A DNA stretch of 56,896 nt from Bacteroidales bacterium. Lineage in GTDB: Bacteria; Bacteroidota; Bacteroidia; Bacteroidales; UBA932. A model generated the notes under the pieces. That model saw only the letters and a list, made by a program, of their open reading frames with translations. It made no database searches and was not told where the DNA came from. Where the stretch lies: positions 1-56,896 of the forward strand of contig JAFPWX010000025.1 in assembly GCA_017412645.1 (NCBI GenBank). The letters run 5' to 3'. Positions 1-18,783 of this stretch are shown piece by piece. How positions within the stretch are numbered: the stretch's first letter is position 1; each line of letters opens with the position of its first letter. A program made the position numbers and the translations under genes.

Positions 1-630
1 ACCCGCGTCTCCTATCCGATCTACCACATCAACAACATCGTCCGTCCCGACAGCCACGGCCCTGCGGCAAAGCAGGTCATCTTCCTGTCGGCCGACGCCT
101 TCGGTGTACTTCCTCCTGTTTCCATCCTTGATTCAGAGCAGACCAAGTACTACTTCCTCTCCGGCTTCACCGCCAAGCTGGCAGGAACCGAGCGTGGTAT
201 CACCGAACCTACTCCTACCTTCTCCGCCTGCTTTGGCCAGGCTTTCCTTGAGCTTCACCCGACCAAGTATGCCGAAGAGCTCGTCAAGAGGATGAAGAAG
301 AGCGGTGCCAAGGCATATCTCGTGAACACCGGCTGGAACGGCACCGGCAAGCGCATCTCCATCAAGGATACCCGCGGAATCATCGACGCCATCCTTTCCG
401 GCGCCATCGACAAGGCTCCCACCAAGCACATCCCGTACTTCGATTTCGAAGTGCCCACCAAGCTTGAAGGAGTCGACACCGGCATCCTCGATCCCCGCGA
501 CACCTACGCCAAGCCCGAAGAATGGGAAGTCAAGGCAAAGGACCTCGCAGGCCGCTTCATCAAGAACTTCAAGAAGTACGAAAGCAACCGCGCAGGCAAG
601 GCCCTCGTAAAGGCCGGCCCGAAGTTATAG
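1..630 (+). CDS. pckA: Phosphoenolpyruvate carboxykinase (ATP), C-terminal part
   Basis: The frame is open from base 1 to the TAG at 628-630, so the 5' part lies outside the window; 209 codons are visible. The residues match the C-terminal half of ATP-dependent PEP carboxykinase: [10 protein letters not shown], then the [14 protein letters not shown] stretch, the [12 protein letters not shown] loop, the [12 protein letters not shown] segment and the [11 protein letters not shown] motif that takes part in nucleotide and metal binding. The enzyme interconverts oxaloacetate and PEP with ADP/ATP in the cytosol; in Bacteroidales it mainly runs toward oxaloacetate in the CO2-fixing succinate pathway (family knowledge). 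A nested palindrome begins one base after the stop. Confidence 0.97.
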
Positions 631-716
631 AGCCCTTGCATTTTTGCCTAATAATGACGGACCCCCCGGCTTTTTCGCTGGGGGGTCTGACGTTTTCGGG
701 CTTTTTTGCAAGGGCT
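631..716 (+). repeat. Nested palindromic intergenic element, copy A (terminator-like)
   Basis: The outer arms AGCCCTTGCA (631-640) and TGCAAGGGCT (707-716) are perfectly complementary over 10 bp. Inside them a second stem, GACCCCCC (660-667) with GGGGGGTC (680-687), closes a 12-nt loop. The two spacers between the stems are 19 nt each and match those of copy B at 2006-2095, while the stems differ in sequence yet keep pairing. It starts right after the pckA stop, so it could end transcription or protect the 3' end. It also sits 12 bp from the stop of the convergent gene at 729. Confidence 0.8.
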
Positions 717-728
717 ACCTTGCTTCCG

Positions 729-1886
729 CTATCTGGAGGTCTTCGGGGTGTGGACCTTCAGGGCTCCGCGGTTCATGTGATTCTTCGACACGGCAGGACC
801 TGCGGGGAGTCTGTGCGCCTTAGCAGGAGCCTGGATCACCTCTATGCGGGTCATGGTAAGAGGCAGGGTGGGAACACCGGCGGTGTTATAGTGATACCAC
901 TTATTGTCCTTATACGCATAACGGGTGTAGCGCATGGTCTTGATGGGAGTCTTGAACCCGTTGTCGAATTCCAGCATCTCAGGCTGGATACTGAAGGTCT
1001 CGCCGGACTGCTGGGTGTGGGCGATGTTGTACTGGTAATCGGCACCCTCGCCGTCCACATACTCACCGTCCGGTCCGAGGTAGGTTCCGACGAACATCTC
1101 GTCCACGTCGCCAAGATTATCATCCTTATAAGCGAAGATGAACTGGCCGTAGAAATACATGTTGCCGTCTTCCTTATTATAACGGGTGTAGATCCAGTCT
1201 TCGTCCATGGTCATCTGCTCGGTCACATTCGGGCCTGTCTCCCAACCGTCAACGGTGTAGAAGTAGTTGTTTTCGGCGGGGCTGACAGTGATTTCGTAAG
1301 GAGACGAACCGTCTGTCACACGCCACTTGCCTATCCAGCGGATATAGTTGGCAACAGCAGCCTCTTCCTCCACCTGATGGGCAGCCTTGGCATATTTGCC
1401 GGTGATACCGCCCTTGGCGTTCATCTCTATGATATAGGTGACGTAGTTGCCGTGGAAGAGAAGGTCGAACGCCACGATGCCGGTCTGGCTCTTGTCGAAG
1501 GCGTTGTTATTGTTCTCATACCATTTGCCGTCGCCGGCCGCATCCACAACCGCCTTGGCTTCAGCCGTGAAGAAATCCTTCAGGCTGCCGTCGTAGGAAT
1601 CCTGAAGCACGCCGTCCTGAAGGCTGCGCACAATGAACCAGTTATTGCCGGTATACTTGAAGCGGAACTCCTCCACGCGGGAAACCGAACCGTCAGTCTC
1701 TTCGAAATCAGCGCGCCCGAGATAGGTCACGGTCCAGTCGGGATTCTCAACTATCTTCACTTCCTCGGACTGGTTGTTGCCATTGCCACCGTGTCCGTGG
1801 CCGGACGGCCCGAAACGATCCTTTTTACAACCGGTAAATGCCAGTGCAGCAACGAGAGCGGCTGCTAGAATTACATTGATTCTCAT
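729..1886 (-). CDS. Lipoprotein of unknown function
   Basis: 385 residues from the ATG at 1886, which places a clean type II signal peptide at the N-terminus (MRINVILAAALVAALAFTGC, lipidated Cys20); an upstream in-frame start would only add ten residues before the signal. After the Cys comes KKD, then a Gly/His/Asn-rich tether at about residues 25-40, then a soluble beta-rich body with many Tyr/Trp (for example DWTVTYLGRADF). This is typical of Bacteroidota surface or periplasmic lipoproteins, but I recognise no family. The last 30 residues (after EVIQAPAK) look unlike the rest and might reflect a late frameshift. The gene lies downstream of copy B and converges on pckA. Confidence 0.75.
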   Translation of the reverse strand: MRINVILAAALVAALAFTGCKKDRFGPSGHGHGGNGNNQSEEVKIVENPDWTVTYLGRADFEETDGSVSRVEEFRFKYTGNNWFIVRSLQDGVLQDSYDGSLKDFFTAEAKAVVDAAGDGKWYENNNNAFDKSQTGIVAFDLLFHGNYVTYIIEMNAKGGITGKYAKAAHQVEEEAAVANYIRWIGKWRVTDGSSPYEITVSPAENNYFYTVDGWETGPNVTEQMTMDEDWIYTRYNKEDGNMYFYGQFIFAYKDDNLGDVDEMFVGTYLGPDGEYVDGEGADYQYNIAHTQQSGETFSIQPEMLEFDNGFKTPIKTMRYTRYAYKDNKWYHYNTAGVPTLPLTMTRIEVIQAPAKAHRLPAGPAVSKNHMNRGALKVHTPKTSR

Positions 1887-2005
1887 ATCCAGTGTGTTTG
1901 TGTCTCTAACCTGCAAATATAGCTAATCTCCCCTGCAAATGCAAGTAACGAGCCAGGAAGGCTTTCTGACCGACGCCGGATTGTCTGGCAGGCTGGTCTC
2001 ATGAT

Positions 2006-2095
2006 CGCCGACTTGCAAAAACGGCCGAAAACGCAAGTACCCCAGGCTTTAAACCCTGGGGTACCGTCATTTTTGGGCAAAAATGCAAGTCGGCG
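2006..2095 (-). repeat. Nested palindromic intergenic element, copy B
   Basis: The outer arms at 2006-2017 and 2084-2095 (CGCCGACTTGCA with TGCAAGTCGGCG) pair perfectly over 12 bp. The inner arms at 2037-2046 and 2055-2064 (GTACCCCAGG with CCTGGGGTAC) pair over 10 bp. Read on the minus strand the 19-nt left spacer matches copy A at 17 of 19 positions and the right spacer at 15 of 19, while the helices differ by paired changes. It begins 5 bp after the nuclease stop codon and is in sense orientation to that gene, the same placement copy A has behind pckA. Confidence 0.8.
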
Positions 2096-2100
2096 CCAGC

Positions 2101-3183
2101 CTAGAAGTCACGGAATGAATCCAAGGAGGTGTTTGCCTCAGCTGTAGTCTGCAGTGCAACGGGGAGGTTCGCGAAGAGGTCGAAACCAGTCCACGCTTCT
2201 ATCTGGTCCACGCTGACAGTGAAATCATAGTAGTGCTCCGTATCCTTATTGTATTCACGATGATCAAACCAGAATCCGATAGCAGATGCAGAGGAAAGAT
2301 TCCCGCTGCCGTCACGTTTCACTTTCAGGATAGCCTTCCAATAGTAGTTAGGCACAGGCAGAGAGGCAGGATTGGCGCTTTGAGTCCCTGTCAAATAGGT
2401 GATTGACTCACTTCCTCCAGCCTTCCTATAAGCCGGTCCTGTAACTACATACACTGTATCCGTGGCACTTGAAACCAGTCCTCTTACCGCTCCTTCAAGA
2501 GATCCCCAAATACTTCCGTTGAATTTATCCTGAAGCTGCGGGGTCTGATTCGTGGAATAGTAAGTCTGCAGATTCATCTGATCATTACTCTTACGGCTTG
2601 CGTTGGGACACTGGTGACCACGAGCATACGCAGAAGCGTTGTACATCGTTGGATAGCTATTATCTACAATTTTGACCTGCTTTGAATTATCAATATTGGG
2701 ATTGTAGCGCCAGCTGGATGTCGATGCAGATCCTGTCTTATGAGTTCCACAGAGAGGATATGCTACCCAAAGAGAAGCATACCAGGCATAGCTGTAGTTG
2801 TAACTGTAGTTCCTGTTCGTTCCCTCAGTGCTCCCACTGCCATAGAACCAGCCCACATAATCCTCACTGCCGCTGATTGCAGGGAGCTCCAGCCAGCCGA
2901 GTTTCTCGGGAGTAGCGGCTGAAGTGGTGAAGGAGCTCTCGTCTCCGTAACGATAAACGTAGTCTCCCGCCGCCTCGCTGAACTCGAGCACGTATGCCTT
3001 ATAATAATAGGTTGTCCCCGCAGAGAGTCCGGTGATGGCCTTGCTGAACGGTGAAGACGTGCCGGTGGCCACGGCCTTGCTTCCAAGGCTGCCCGATGTA
3101 GTTCCGTAATAGAACCCGACTTCGCTGATCGTTCCTGTTTCTCCCGAGTAGGAGCCCTGCAGGGTTGCCCCTGCAGAACTCAC
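2101..3183 (-). CDS. DNA/RNA non-specific endonuclease (NUC family), N-terminus missing
   Basis: From a GTG at 3183 this gives 360 residues, but the frame stays open up to a TGA at 3238-3240. Residues 1-90 form a fibronectin/Ig-like module (GSYSGETGTISEVGFYYG ... GTTYYYKAYV). The rest is a NUC domain: the beta-beta-alpha-metal motif appears as ARGHQCPNASRKSN (His190 as base; the usual Asp of DRGH is Ala) and the metal-Asn region as STNQTPQLQDKFNGSIWGSLE-like residues at about 209-230. Such enzymes cut DNA and RNA outside the cytoplasm and normally carry a signal peptide. None is present here, there is no ATG, and the upstream lipoprotein is in the same frame. It may be a 5'-truncated gene, or the tail of a longer protein cut by a stop. 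Confidence 0.75.
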   Translation of the reverse strand: MSSAGATLQGSYSGETGTISEVGFYYGTTSGSLGSKAVATGTSSPFSKAITGLSAGTTYYYKAYVLEFSEAAGDYVYRYGDESSFTTSAATPEKLGWLELPAISGSEDYVGWFYGSGSTEGTNRNYSYNYSYAWYASLWVAYPLCGTHKTGSASTSSWRYNPNIDNSKQVKIVDNSYPTMYNASAYARGHQCPNASRKSNDQMNLQTYYSTNQTPQLQDKFNGSIWGSLEGAVRGLVSSATDTVYVVTGPAYRKAGGSESITYLTGTQSANPASLPVPNYYWKAILKVKRDGSGNLSSASAIGFWFDHREYNKDTEHYYDFTVSVDQIEAWTGFDLFANLPVALQTTAEANTSLDSFRDF

Positions 3184-9586: not shown

Positions 9587-9698
9587 GGGGACCTAGCACG
9601 AAAAAGGCCAAAATCATGGAAGGTCCCCCTCTGGAAACGGGGACCTAGCACGAAAAAGGCCGAAATCATGGAAGGTCCCCCTCAAAACAAGGGGACCT
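9587..9698. repeat. Tandem palindromic repeat behind hicB
   Basis: Two copies of a 44-bp block start at 9587 and 9639 (period 52) and differ at one base. Each runs GGGGACCT, a 28-nt spacer containing CACGAAAAAGGCC(A/G)AAATC, then AGGTCCCC. A further GGGGACCT closes the array at 9691-9698. GGGGACCT and AGGTCCCC are complementary, so several alternative 8-bp hairpins can form. The spacer core also occurs at 18591-18612. The array lies between the hicB stop and the recG start and holds no gene. Confidence 0.8.
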
Positions 9699-9746
9699 GT
9701 CCCTCCCCCTGGAATCTTTTTGACGGAAAATGACTATCTTTACACC

Positions 9747-11915
9747 GTGAGCAACCTGGCCAGCGACATACAGTACATCTCCGGGGTGGGGCCCAAAAGA
9801 GCGGCACTCATCAAGGCGGAACTGGGCGTGGCCACAATGGGCGAGCTGCTCCGCATCTACCCCTATCGCTACATCGACCGCAGCCGCTTCTACCGCATCT
9901 CCGAAATCGCCGGCGAAGAGGCCTATGTTCAGATAAAAGCCCGGGTCGTAAGCCGTACAATGTACGGCCCCTCCGGCAGCATAATCCCTCCCGGAGACAA
10001 AAAGCTCCAGTACGCCGTAAAGCGCCTCAGCGTCATCGTGGAAGACAATTCCGGCCAGATGGAGATGGTATTCTTCAAAGGCATCAAGTGGAACTATGCC
10101 AAGCTGGTGCCGGACTCCGTTTTCGTCTTCTTCGGAAAACCCTCGCTCTTCAACGGAAAACTCAACATGGTGCACCCGGAGGTGGACGCTCCCCTGCCGG
10201 AAGGCTCCGACCTGCAGAGCGGTCTCACGGGAGTCTACCCCAGCACCGAAAAACTCATCAACGGAGGCGTCACCGGCAAAGTGATGTGCAAGCTCCAGAG
10301 CGCCGCCCTGGCCCTTTGTCTTCCCGAAATCAGGGAAACCCTTCCCGAATACATCCTCACCGAAAACGCCCTTTGCGGCCTGCAGTACGCCATAAGGAAC
10401 ATCCATTTCCCGGCCGACCAGTACGCCCTCCAGAAAGCCACAAGGAGGCTCAAGTTCGAAGAACTCTTCTTCCTGCAGCTGAGTCTGCTCAAACAGAAAT
10501 TCATCCGCTCCCACGGCAATCCGGGTCTCACGATGCCCAAGGTGGGAGCCGCCTTCAACTCACTGTACGAATCGCTCCCCTTCCAGCTCACCGGCGCCCA
10601 GAAAAGGGTGATACGGGAGATCTTCGAAGACATGCGCAGCGGCCATCAGATGAACCGTCTGCTTCAGGGCGACGTCGGCTCCGGAAAGACGATGGTGGCC
10701 GTACTTAGTGCGCTGCTGGCGGTAGACAACGGCTACCAGGCGTGCATCATGGCGCCGACGGAAGTGCTTGCTCAGCAGCATTTTGCCAACATCAGCCGGT
10801 ATCTTCAAAGAACAGGTGTGAGCTGCGCCCTGCTCACAGGCAGCACCTCCCAGAAAGAGAGGCGCGTCATCCACGCCGGCCTGCAGGATGGCAGCCTCGG
10901 CATCATCGTGGGAACGCACGCCCTCATCGAAGACAACGTAACCTTCAAGGCCCTCGGGCTGGCAGTAATCGACGAACAGCACCGCTTCGGGGTGGACCAG
11001 CGCGCCAAGCTCTGGTCCAAAGGGCCGCTGATCGGAGGGGATGCTCTCCAGAATCGCTTTGCCCCCCACGTTCTGGTAATGACCGCCACCCCCATCCCCC
11101 GCACTCTCGCAATGACGGTCTATGGCGATCTCGACGTATCCGTCATCGACGAACTGCCCCCGGGGCGCAAACCCGTTAAGACCGTTCTCATCTCCGACGC
11201 CAAAAAGGCTGCCGTCTACAAGTTCATGGCCAAGCAGATCGCGCTCGGAAGACAGGTATTCGTGGTTTATCCTCTCATCTTCGAGAGCGAAAAGATGGAC
11301 CTGAACAATCTCCAGATAGGTTACGAAGAGATACTCAAGCGCTTCCCCGAGCCCGAGTACAAGGTAGCCATAGTGCATGGCCAGCAGAGCTCGGACGTGA
11401 AAGCGTTCAACATGGACGCGTTCGTGTCCGGAAGGGCGCAGATACTCGTGTCCACCACCGTGATTGAGGTGGGTGTTGACGTGCCAAATGCCAGCGTAAT
11501 GGTGATCGAGAGCGCCCAGAGGTTCGGCCTCAGCCAGCTCCATCAGCTGCGTGGACGAGTGGGGCGCGGTGCCGACGAAAGCTTCTGCGTGCTCGTGCAC
11601 GATTTCAAGACCAGCAAGGAAGCCCGCGAGCGCCTGGAACTCATGTGCCGCACCACCGACGGCTTCGAGATAGCGGAAGAAGACATGCGCATGCGAGGCC
11701 CCGGCGATCTGGAAGGCACGGCCCAGAGCGGTCTGCCGGTGAGCCTCAATATCGCTTCCCTTGCGAAAGACGGCCTGGTGCTGGGCGAAGCGCGCGCCTA
11801 CGCGACCCGCGTCCTGGAAGCCGACCCGGCCCTGGAAGAACCCCGCAACGCACTGCTGCTCAAAGAATTGCGAAAAGACAAATACAATATTAAAGACTAT
11901 AGCAGAATATCATGA
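9747..11915 (+). CDS. recG: ATP-dependent DNA helicase RecG
   Basis: 722 residues from a GTG at 9747 (MSNLASDIQYISGVGPKRA), which matches how Bacteroidota RecG usually begins; the in-frame TTG at 9720 adds nine unlikely residues. Domains: the N-terminal wedge with an OB fold (about 60-170), then the helicase core with Walker A GDVGSGKT, motif Ia APTEVLAQQH, the Walker B-like DEQHRFG, TATPIPRT, and the C-terminal QxxGRxGRG motif (HQLRGRVGRG). RecG reverses stalled forks and branch-migrates Holliday junctions. Its stop overlaps the next start (ATGA), which argues for one operon with the S9 peptidase and the WYL regulator. Confidence 0.97.
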   Translation: MSNLASDIQYISGVGPKRAALIKAELGVATMGELLRIYPYRYIDRSRFYRISEIAGEEAYVQIKARVVSRTMYGPSGSIIPPGDKKLQYAVKRLSVIVEDNSGQMEMVFFKGIKWNYAKLVPDSVFVFFGKPSLFNGKLNMVHPEVDAPLPEGSDLQSGLTGVYPSTEKLINGGVTGKVMCKLQSAALALCLPEIRETLPEYILTENALCGLQYAIRNIHFPADQYALQKATRRLKFEELFFLQLSLLKQKFIRSHGNPGLTMPKVGAAFNSLYESLPFQLTGAQKRVIREIFEDMRSGHQMNRLLQGDVGSGKTMVAVLSALLAVDNGYQACIMAPTEVLAQQHFANISRYLQRTGVSCALLTGSTSQKERRVIHAGLQDGSLGIIVGTHALIEDNVTFKALGLAVIDEQHRFGVDQRAKLWSKGPLIGGDALQNRFAPHVLVMTATPIPRTLAMTVYGDLDVSVIDELPPGRKPVKTVLISDAKKAAVYKFMAKQIALGRQVFVVYPLIFESEKMDLNNLQIGYEEILKRFPEPEYKVAIVHGQQSSDVKAFNMDAFVSGRAQILVSTTVIEVGVDVPNASVMVIESAQRFGLSQLHQLRGRVGRGADESFCVLVHDFKTSKEARERLELMCRTTDGFEIAEEDMRMRGPGDLEGTAQSGLPVSLNIASLAKDGLVLGEARAYATRVLEADPALEEPRNALLLKELRKDKYNIKDYSRIS

Positions 11916-18701: not shown

Positions 18702-18783
18702 TGCGGTAGACGTCCAAAAAAACGGGACGTCTACCGCAAAAAAGGCCGATTTTGACCTAGGTGTCCCAAAAAATGGGACACCT
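18702..18783. repeat. Two neighbouring perfect palindromes with GGCC core between them
   Basis: TGCGGTAGACGTCC (18702-18715) pairs perfectly over 14 bp with 18725-18738. AGGTGTCCC (18759-18767) pairs over 9 bp with GGGACACCT (18775-18783). The DNA between them contains AAAAAAGGCCGATTTT, the same kind of core as in the other repeats. Further bases to about 18900 are GC-rich and show no gene. Confidence 0.75.

Follow-up and report, generated by a model that had tools for sequence, protein, structure and literature searches.

Elements of the kind considered here are already known, both as REPs that accompany RAYTs and as Rickettsia palindromic elements. In the accessible part of one account, REPs and REPINs are short dispersed palindromes, biased towards 3' ends and found next to HUH Y1-like genes, which have similar copies elsewhere in the genome and come in several types per genome (PMC6006769); the family described below is like them in these respects, with its architecture, though none of its three main stem types, seen beside RAYT-like genes. 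The same text describes the RAYTs of Bacteroidetes (subclass 2.6, group 5) as 'flanked by atypical secondary structures' and gives their motif as YIH[QN]NP. Rickettsia palindromic elements and intragenic REPs, as far as the available portions of two papers go, lie in frame in unrelated housekeeping genes, where they encode a conserved peptide of ~20-50 residues; they sometimes occur more than once per gene, and different REPs are found near one recB site in two Xanthomonas species (PMC10969869, PMC3733652). In-frame palindromes, unrelated housekeeping genes and a conserved peptide all recur here. Finally, CGTC-tagged REPs are known from Bacteroidetes too, are also intragenic and have loops of 4-5 nt (PMC3733652, available text).

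The window, that is, the whole stretch of 56,896 nucleotides that was analysed, is one entire contig of a 26-contig, 1.80-Mb assembly of a genome that is ~96% complete. Near its start lie two palindromic copies, A and B, at the positions and on the strands that a sequence-only reading had given them (Table 1). Each follows a stop codon in sense with its gene, as that reading also had it: the arm of A starts at the next base after the PEPCK TAG (628-630), and B begins 5 bases past the stop of the minus-strand nuclease gene (2101-2103). The two copies do share two spacers, although these are ~25 nt long and not 19 nt as first described, with 23 of 25 positions identical in the first (TTGCATTTTTGCC..A.AATGACGG) and 20 of 24 in the second. 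With as many as 3 mismatches allowed, a 24-nt spacer pattern is found at two places in the window, against a mean of 0 in 100 shuffles. The arms of A and B differ yet pair, so that both copies contain two paired helices, and each alone folds as a long nested hairpin (-56.6 kcal/mol, z -8.9 for A; -53.3 kcal/mol, z -8.1 for B; 0 of 200 shuffles as good in either case). Because the copies lie on opposite strands, the pair was missed by a direct-repeat finder and caught in an inverted-repeat row.

Table 1. Features of the window; bit scores refer to the covariance model built on 24 copies
Feature	Position	Strand	Remarks
PEPCK gene, ATP-type (phosphoenolpyruvate carboxykinase), 3' part	1..630	+	truncated by contig start; PF01293, E 2.9e-68
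Copy A, whole element	631..716	+	stem type GACC/GCCC; model match C24:627-718, 85.6 bits (A among the 24 training copies)
Copy A, outer arms	631-640 and 707-716	+	
Copy A, first spacer	636-660	+	
Copy A, inner hairpin	658-689	+	
Copy A, second spacer	~688-711	+	
ORF between A and B	729..1916	-	3' end toward copy A; no Pfam match
Copy B, whole element	2006..2095	-	stem type GTACC/CGCCGACTTGCA; model match C24:2006-2097, 83.6 bits (B among the 24 training copies)
Copy B, outer arms	2095-2084 and 2017-2006	-	
Copy B, inner hairpin	~2065-2036	-	
DNA/RNA non-specific endonuclease gene	2101..3183	-	stop codon followed by copy B; PF01223, E 6.7e-34
Related repeat, same spacer style, other stem (GGGGACCTTCC...GGTCC)	9589..9680	-	array-like; 40.4 bits
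recG open frame	9597-11912		recG domains by Pfam; array-like repeat at its upstream end
Single GACGTCCC-type hairpin	18707..18733		3 mismatches to the hairpin pattern

A search for further copies with a covariance model, which the sequence-only reading had proposed, demonstrates that the two-storey architecture recurs with rigid spacing across the 1.8-Mb genome. The model, built on 24 copies, returned 77 rows at E<=0.01, and removal of 22 doubles (both strands of one palindrome scoring) left 55 deduplicated places that include A, B and all 24 training copies; two array places overlap, and two tandem copies on contig C13 overlap by some bases. REPs and REPINs are short palindromes with many dispersed copies, and the 55 places in 1.8 Mb agree with this. 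A copy is ~92 nt long and consists of an outer arm, a T-rich spacer of ~25 nt, an inner C-rich hairpin, a second T-rich spacer and the other outer arm, and spacer pattern searches of the genome put the core-to-core distance of copies at 51-54 nt, mostly 52. Sorted by eye, the 55 places comprise the stem types GACC/GCCC (17), GTATCC/CAACC (15), CACC/GGCGG (8), ACTAACC (4), GTGACC (3) and GTACC, the type of copy B (1), as well as GGTC arrays (5) and singles (2). Inner and outer stem types are linked, going together across copies, and the stems of A and B differ because they represent two separate types. In a second style, GACGTCCC hairpins come in pairs joined by the same kind of spacer: a search that allowed 3 mismatches found 16 such hairpins, of which 14 form 7 pairs with a pitch of 51-52 nt, and hairpins of this type flank a RAYT-like gene elsewhere in the genome. 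A tandem-array type (GGGGACCTTCC...GGTCCCC, ~52-nt unit, same spacer style) was seen before recG (window:9589-9680) and at two contig ends (G000:C9:35-230 and G000:C18:5-148).

ORF calls around all 55 places, together with Pfam and NCBIfam, put 24 copies in frame inside 17 genes, an assignment that used open frames from simple ORF calls and would have counted gene-breaking copies as intergenic. The AroD-AroA fusion holds five copies, and HemW, RsmE and a DsbD-like protein hold two each. Single copies lie in ApbE, an HU-CCDC81 protein, aspartokinase-homoserine dehydrogenase (ThrA), DUF3109, ATP synthase gamma (AtpG), an outer-membrane barrel, GH109, MtaB, an FHA/zinc-ribbon protein, IspE, an OstA protein, an MFS transporter and an X-Pro peptidase (a copy of the GACGTCCC type), with the gene less certain for the barrel, OstA, HU and X-Pro proteins, where the copy is outside the matched domains. 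Ala/Pro/Ser-rich long loop expansions were also observed in host proteins beyond the elements (L142:2790-3920, L133:3086-4234).

The intragenic copies are strongly biased in orientation. All are antisense to the element except the one in MtaB (23 of 24; P 1.5e-6 for at most one sense copy by chance), and since the sense frame is open in 19 of the 24, including 18 of the 23 antisense copies, stops alone are insufficient to account for the bias. The AroD-AroA region has 7 terminator-like sites, against 3.0 in shuffles, every one opposite the gene strand and 5 of the 7 in elements. Read in antisense, the element encodes hydrophilic peptides of ~30 residues, of which CQKGPKTSDPPAKIEGGPSKSAKNA and RQKTPKMQVSPSKNGGIPSKSPEND are typical; over all 55 places the mean GRAVY of open frames is -1.15 to -1.54 in antisense and -0.05 to +0.37 in sense. 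Sixteen antisense copies of 92 nt all use one frame, many of them with two or three open (P ~1e-5 when dealt among open frames, with copies in one gene maybe non-independent), and copies of 93 nt have one half read in the neighbouring frame. Furthermore, the CACC type is intragenic in 8 of 8 copies (P 6e-4 by counting, the pattern having been noticed post hoc).

The remaining 31 places are outside assigned genes, and 5 of these are arrays. Among the 26 non-array intergenic copies, 18 lie between convergent ORFs (17 with B corrected by eye) and 1 between divergent ORFs, as counted with a crude ORF caller, with the neighbours of A and B corrected by eye and with several copies in one gap. This distribution, together with the inner hairpin and T-tail of B, which look like a terminator on both strands, is what speaks for the lead of the sequence-only reading: a transcribed 3'-end RNA element or bidirectional terminator, maintained by selection on its RNA fold. 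I nevertheless regard this as unlikely. Placement at 3' ends and between convergent genes is general for REPs, in the available text of PMC3733652, and so is a likeness between REPs and these intergenic copies. Copy A is unflagged as a terminator, and the region examined has 3 terminator-like sites against 1.5 (sd 1.3) in shuffles. Although the intergenic copies are indeed mostly at gene 3' ends, 24 of the 55 copies are in frame inside genes, a position for which neither a terminator nor an RNA element of 3' ends would account.

Evidence for a selected fold is divided. Pairing is kept between stem types: across 24 copies of mixed type covariation is 0.468 against a shuffled mean of 0.182, and 0 of 500 shuffles score as high. 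In each of the two largest types, in contrast, it is at shuffle level, with 0.136 against 0.126 for GACC (18 rows, 17 own and 1 from a sister contig; 116 of 500 shuffles reach the score) and 0.080 against 0.088 for GTATCC (15 rows; 358 of 500). The claim of selection for paired structure, made from A and B, is therefore supported in part, covariation being strong across types and absent within these two. The paired changes are whole-type differences that reflect few independent events and thus do not demonstrate continuing selection for an RNA fold, which I dropped as the main reading. A known RNA family was also considered and rejected, as Rfam at gathering threshold matched no family in the window except a tRNA.

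For 12 of the 24 inserts, orthologues in congeners were compared, and 11 of these inserts are mostly absent from them, AtpG being the exception. In an alignment of AroD-AroA with 29 congener proteins, drawn from 34 other genomes with a match, the stretches that correspond to the five inserts are all gapped in 70% of rows or more (the threshold used). The element is missing from G009, the nearest congener found, at both RsmE sites, both HemW sites, IspE and MFS. Presence in frame in unrelated genes and absence from orthologues is the pattern of the Rickettsia palindromic element type, seen here with 24 copies in 17 genes and with orthologues compared for 12 of the 24 inserts. Two sites are occupied by different stem types in relatives: the same AtpG loop in G009 contains an element, but one that belongs to the type of copy B, and in MFS a sister contig (goat rumen MAG JAFTEQ010000025.1, 88% identity over 3.6 kb) has a GACC-type copy whereas this genome has the CACC type. 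These may be independent insertions into a tolerant loop. The second HemW loop and the IspE loop are variable in length among congeners, some with long inserts of another kind.

Several further observations concern these relatives. The IspE and AtpG loops of congeners (L224 AtpG, L220 IspE) hold other in-frame inserts, e.g. ..SRLRPEGSARND..VISSETEWSREI.., and the IspE insert of congener G011 (L215:1672-1809) folds as a long palindrome. The HU-CCDC81 insert agrees at 92 of 92 nt between this genome (L130:4168-4259) and the sister contig (L152:3944-4035) within flanks of 85-95% identity, a single case. The bin that contains the sister contig (G065) seems mixed, with one contig (C51) 99.66% identical to this genome and another (C79) ~88% identical over its longest piece, and it has few other strong model matches.

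At E<=0.001 and under stricter filters, model matches were found in 10 of 61 genomes, namely this one and 9 of 36 congeners, and 24 genomes of other families gave no match at that threshold. In the congeners the copies differ in their stems but not in layout, and 3 of 23 congener places lie in a spanning frame of at least 200 codons (AtpG of G009 and two other frames). The exact two-spacer pattern was found in one contig only, a member of bin G065, of a public genome collection, from which records of this genome were possibly excluded.

Y1_Tnp has 4 matches in this genome, 3 of them above the Pfam cut-off, and 29 in nine congeners that were selected by having model matches. The resulting 33 RAYT-like loci contain 12 model places at E<=0.1. 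In 7 of the 33 the open frame has an element at most 41 bp away or overlapping its end, and at 26 there is no element within 41 bp, with distances computed for 7 of the 8 loci that have model matches (L268 was left out; the ORF chosen by script is doubtful there and at some other loci, and L275 gave none). Two RAYT-like genes of this genome adjoin elements, L150 with its 3' end and L151 with both of its flanks, and in congeners G015 and G016 the stems of RAYT-flanking copies are similar to another copy elsewhere in the respective genome. In a first control, with 33 loci that carry other genes and mostly come from congeners other than those of the RAYT loci, the model found 3 places; a matched control of 57 kb, taken from eight of the same nine genomes, contained 1 place, compared with 10 in the 88.7 kb of their RAYT loci. 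A position test, which is independent of the choice of genomes, places 3 of 27 distinct congener places in RAYT loci (~0.5% of the nine genomes) where 0.13 are expected, these three sitting at two RAYT genes, with two of them flanking one gene. The GACC, GTATCC and CACC types (40 of 55 copies) are beside none of the 33 loci examined; their RAYTs may have been lost or lie outside the 96%-complete assembly, or the RAYT link may be weaker than it looks. Identity as RAYTs is weak, since the RAYT-like proteins score 26.6-45.1 bits against NF047646 (cut-off 80) and for L151 Pfam gives no match at E<=0.001. Seven of them share the motif NHVH..YV[QHL]MN[SC], five of the seven with such an element; one of the other two (L257, congener G016) has tandem CCAGGTGG hairpins of ~52-nt pitch directly 3' of the gene (L257:2254-2400), which the model missed.

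These data also bear on replication template switching (quasi-palindrome correction), in which one arm templates the other and the stems change together with no transposase. It would explain paired changes without selection, as well as the differing stem types at one site in MFS (own versus sister contig) and AtpG (own versus G009). It leaves unexplained, however, the dispersal of the spacers to 55 places, the types common to many places, the empty orthologous sites and the proximity of RAYT-like genes, and correction of mismatches within the GACC and GTATCC types is no higher than in shuffles; I consider it quite improbable. That the intragenic copies are excised from RNA or bypassed by ribosomes, leaving proteins without the insert, is compatible with the sequence and with stable hairpins inside essential genes, but is hardly credible given that all 24 assigned copies keep the frame open with the host ORF on both sides, which a removed or skipped insert need not do, even if open frames also underlay the assignment.

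Copies A and B are best viewed as probable members of a RAYT-linked, non-autonomous mobile palindrome that is REP-like and is tolerated in frame in the manner of Rickettsia palindromic elements. The conserved spacers, and the fact that types differ as wholes, are more in keeping with a transposase that recognises hairpin and spacer as DNA than with a conserved function as RNA. The likely mobiliser would be a transposase of the RAYT type (HUH, Y1), with hairpin and spacer in single-stranded DNA as its recognition site, and the several stem types may each have, or have had, a RAYT of their own. Copies would persist where harm is small, either directly behind stop codons, with the T-rich strand perhaps doubling as a terminator, or in frame inside genes, where the A-rich strand would be the mRNA, the hairpin has no U-run behind it, and the translated hydrophilic peptide of ~30 residues may form a flexible surface loop. 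No target-site duplication or clean junction could be defined around the inserts because the surrounding loops are also enlarged by Ala/Pro/Ser-rich sequence, and movement of a copy within a species was not observed. A reading as an IS or complete transposon was rejected, as copies of ~92 nt are too short for a transposase gene.

How does this family compare with the systems already described? From REPs and REPINs it differs in having no constant GTAG foot, in its nested form with two T-rich spacers and in its 52-nt hairpin pitch. Neither GTAG nor CGTC is a constant tetranucleotide at the stem foot in three alignments inspected by eye, GACG in the inner stem being frequent and variable. The RAYT-like proteins, besides falling below the NF047646 cut-off, carry NHVH..YV[QHL]MN[SC] in the five of seven beside elements, and not the YIH[QN]NP given for subclass 2.6 in the accessible text of PMC6006769. 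Rickettsia palindromic elements are from another phylum and have another architecture and probably another sequence, and here one gene has five copies. Many copies resemble CGTC-tagged REPs in that their inner stem has GACG, which reads CGTC in the complementary strand, at its foot, but the tag is inconstant, the loops are ~10-13 nt rather than 4-5, and the outer stem is nested with spacers; furthermore, in the portion of PMC3733652 available, these RPE-like repeats are reported to flank no RAYT, whereas the present architecture occurs beside RAYT-like genes. I thus rejected membership of the CGTC-tagged REPs on the inconstant tag. A literature search returned no report of the present family, its nested architecture or its load in core enzymes, while CGTC repeats and RAYT-linked structures in Bacteroidetes in general have been reported.

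A bolder proposal, which I offer tentatively, is that these are RAYT-linked repeats specialised for life inside proteins, in effect a reusable surface-loop cassette. The AtpG, IspE and MFS loops would then have been recolonised by different palindromes in related species, and transposition would drive recurrent growth of core-enzyme loops across the genus. This proposal draws on the hydrophilic frame, the antisense orientation and the restriction of the CACC type to genes (8 of 8). If the reading of A and B as RAYT-linked mobile palindromes is true, protein-coding palindromes, best known from Rickettsia, reach uncultured Bacteroidales, accompanied by a candidate transposase class and by several inserts in single core enzymes. 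The family would be a natural set of tolerated in-frame insertions, and may give concrete anatomy to the 'atypical secondary structures' beside Bacteroidetes RAYT genes (PMC6006769, accessible part). It would then also be possible to test two open questions, by what means coding palindromes move and whether changes in proteins are driven by RAYTs.
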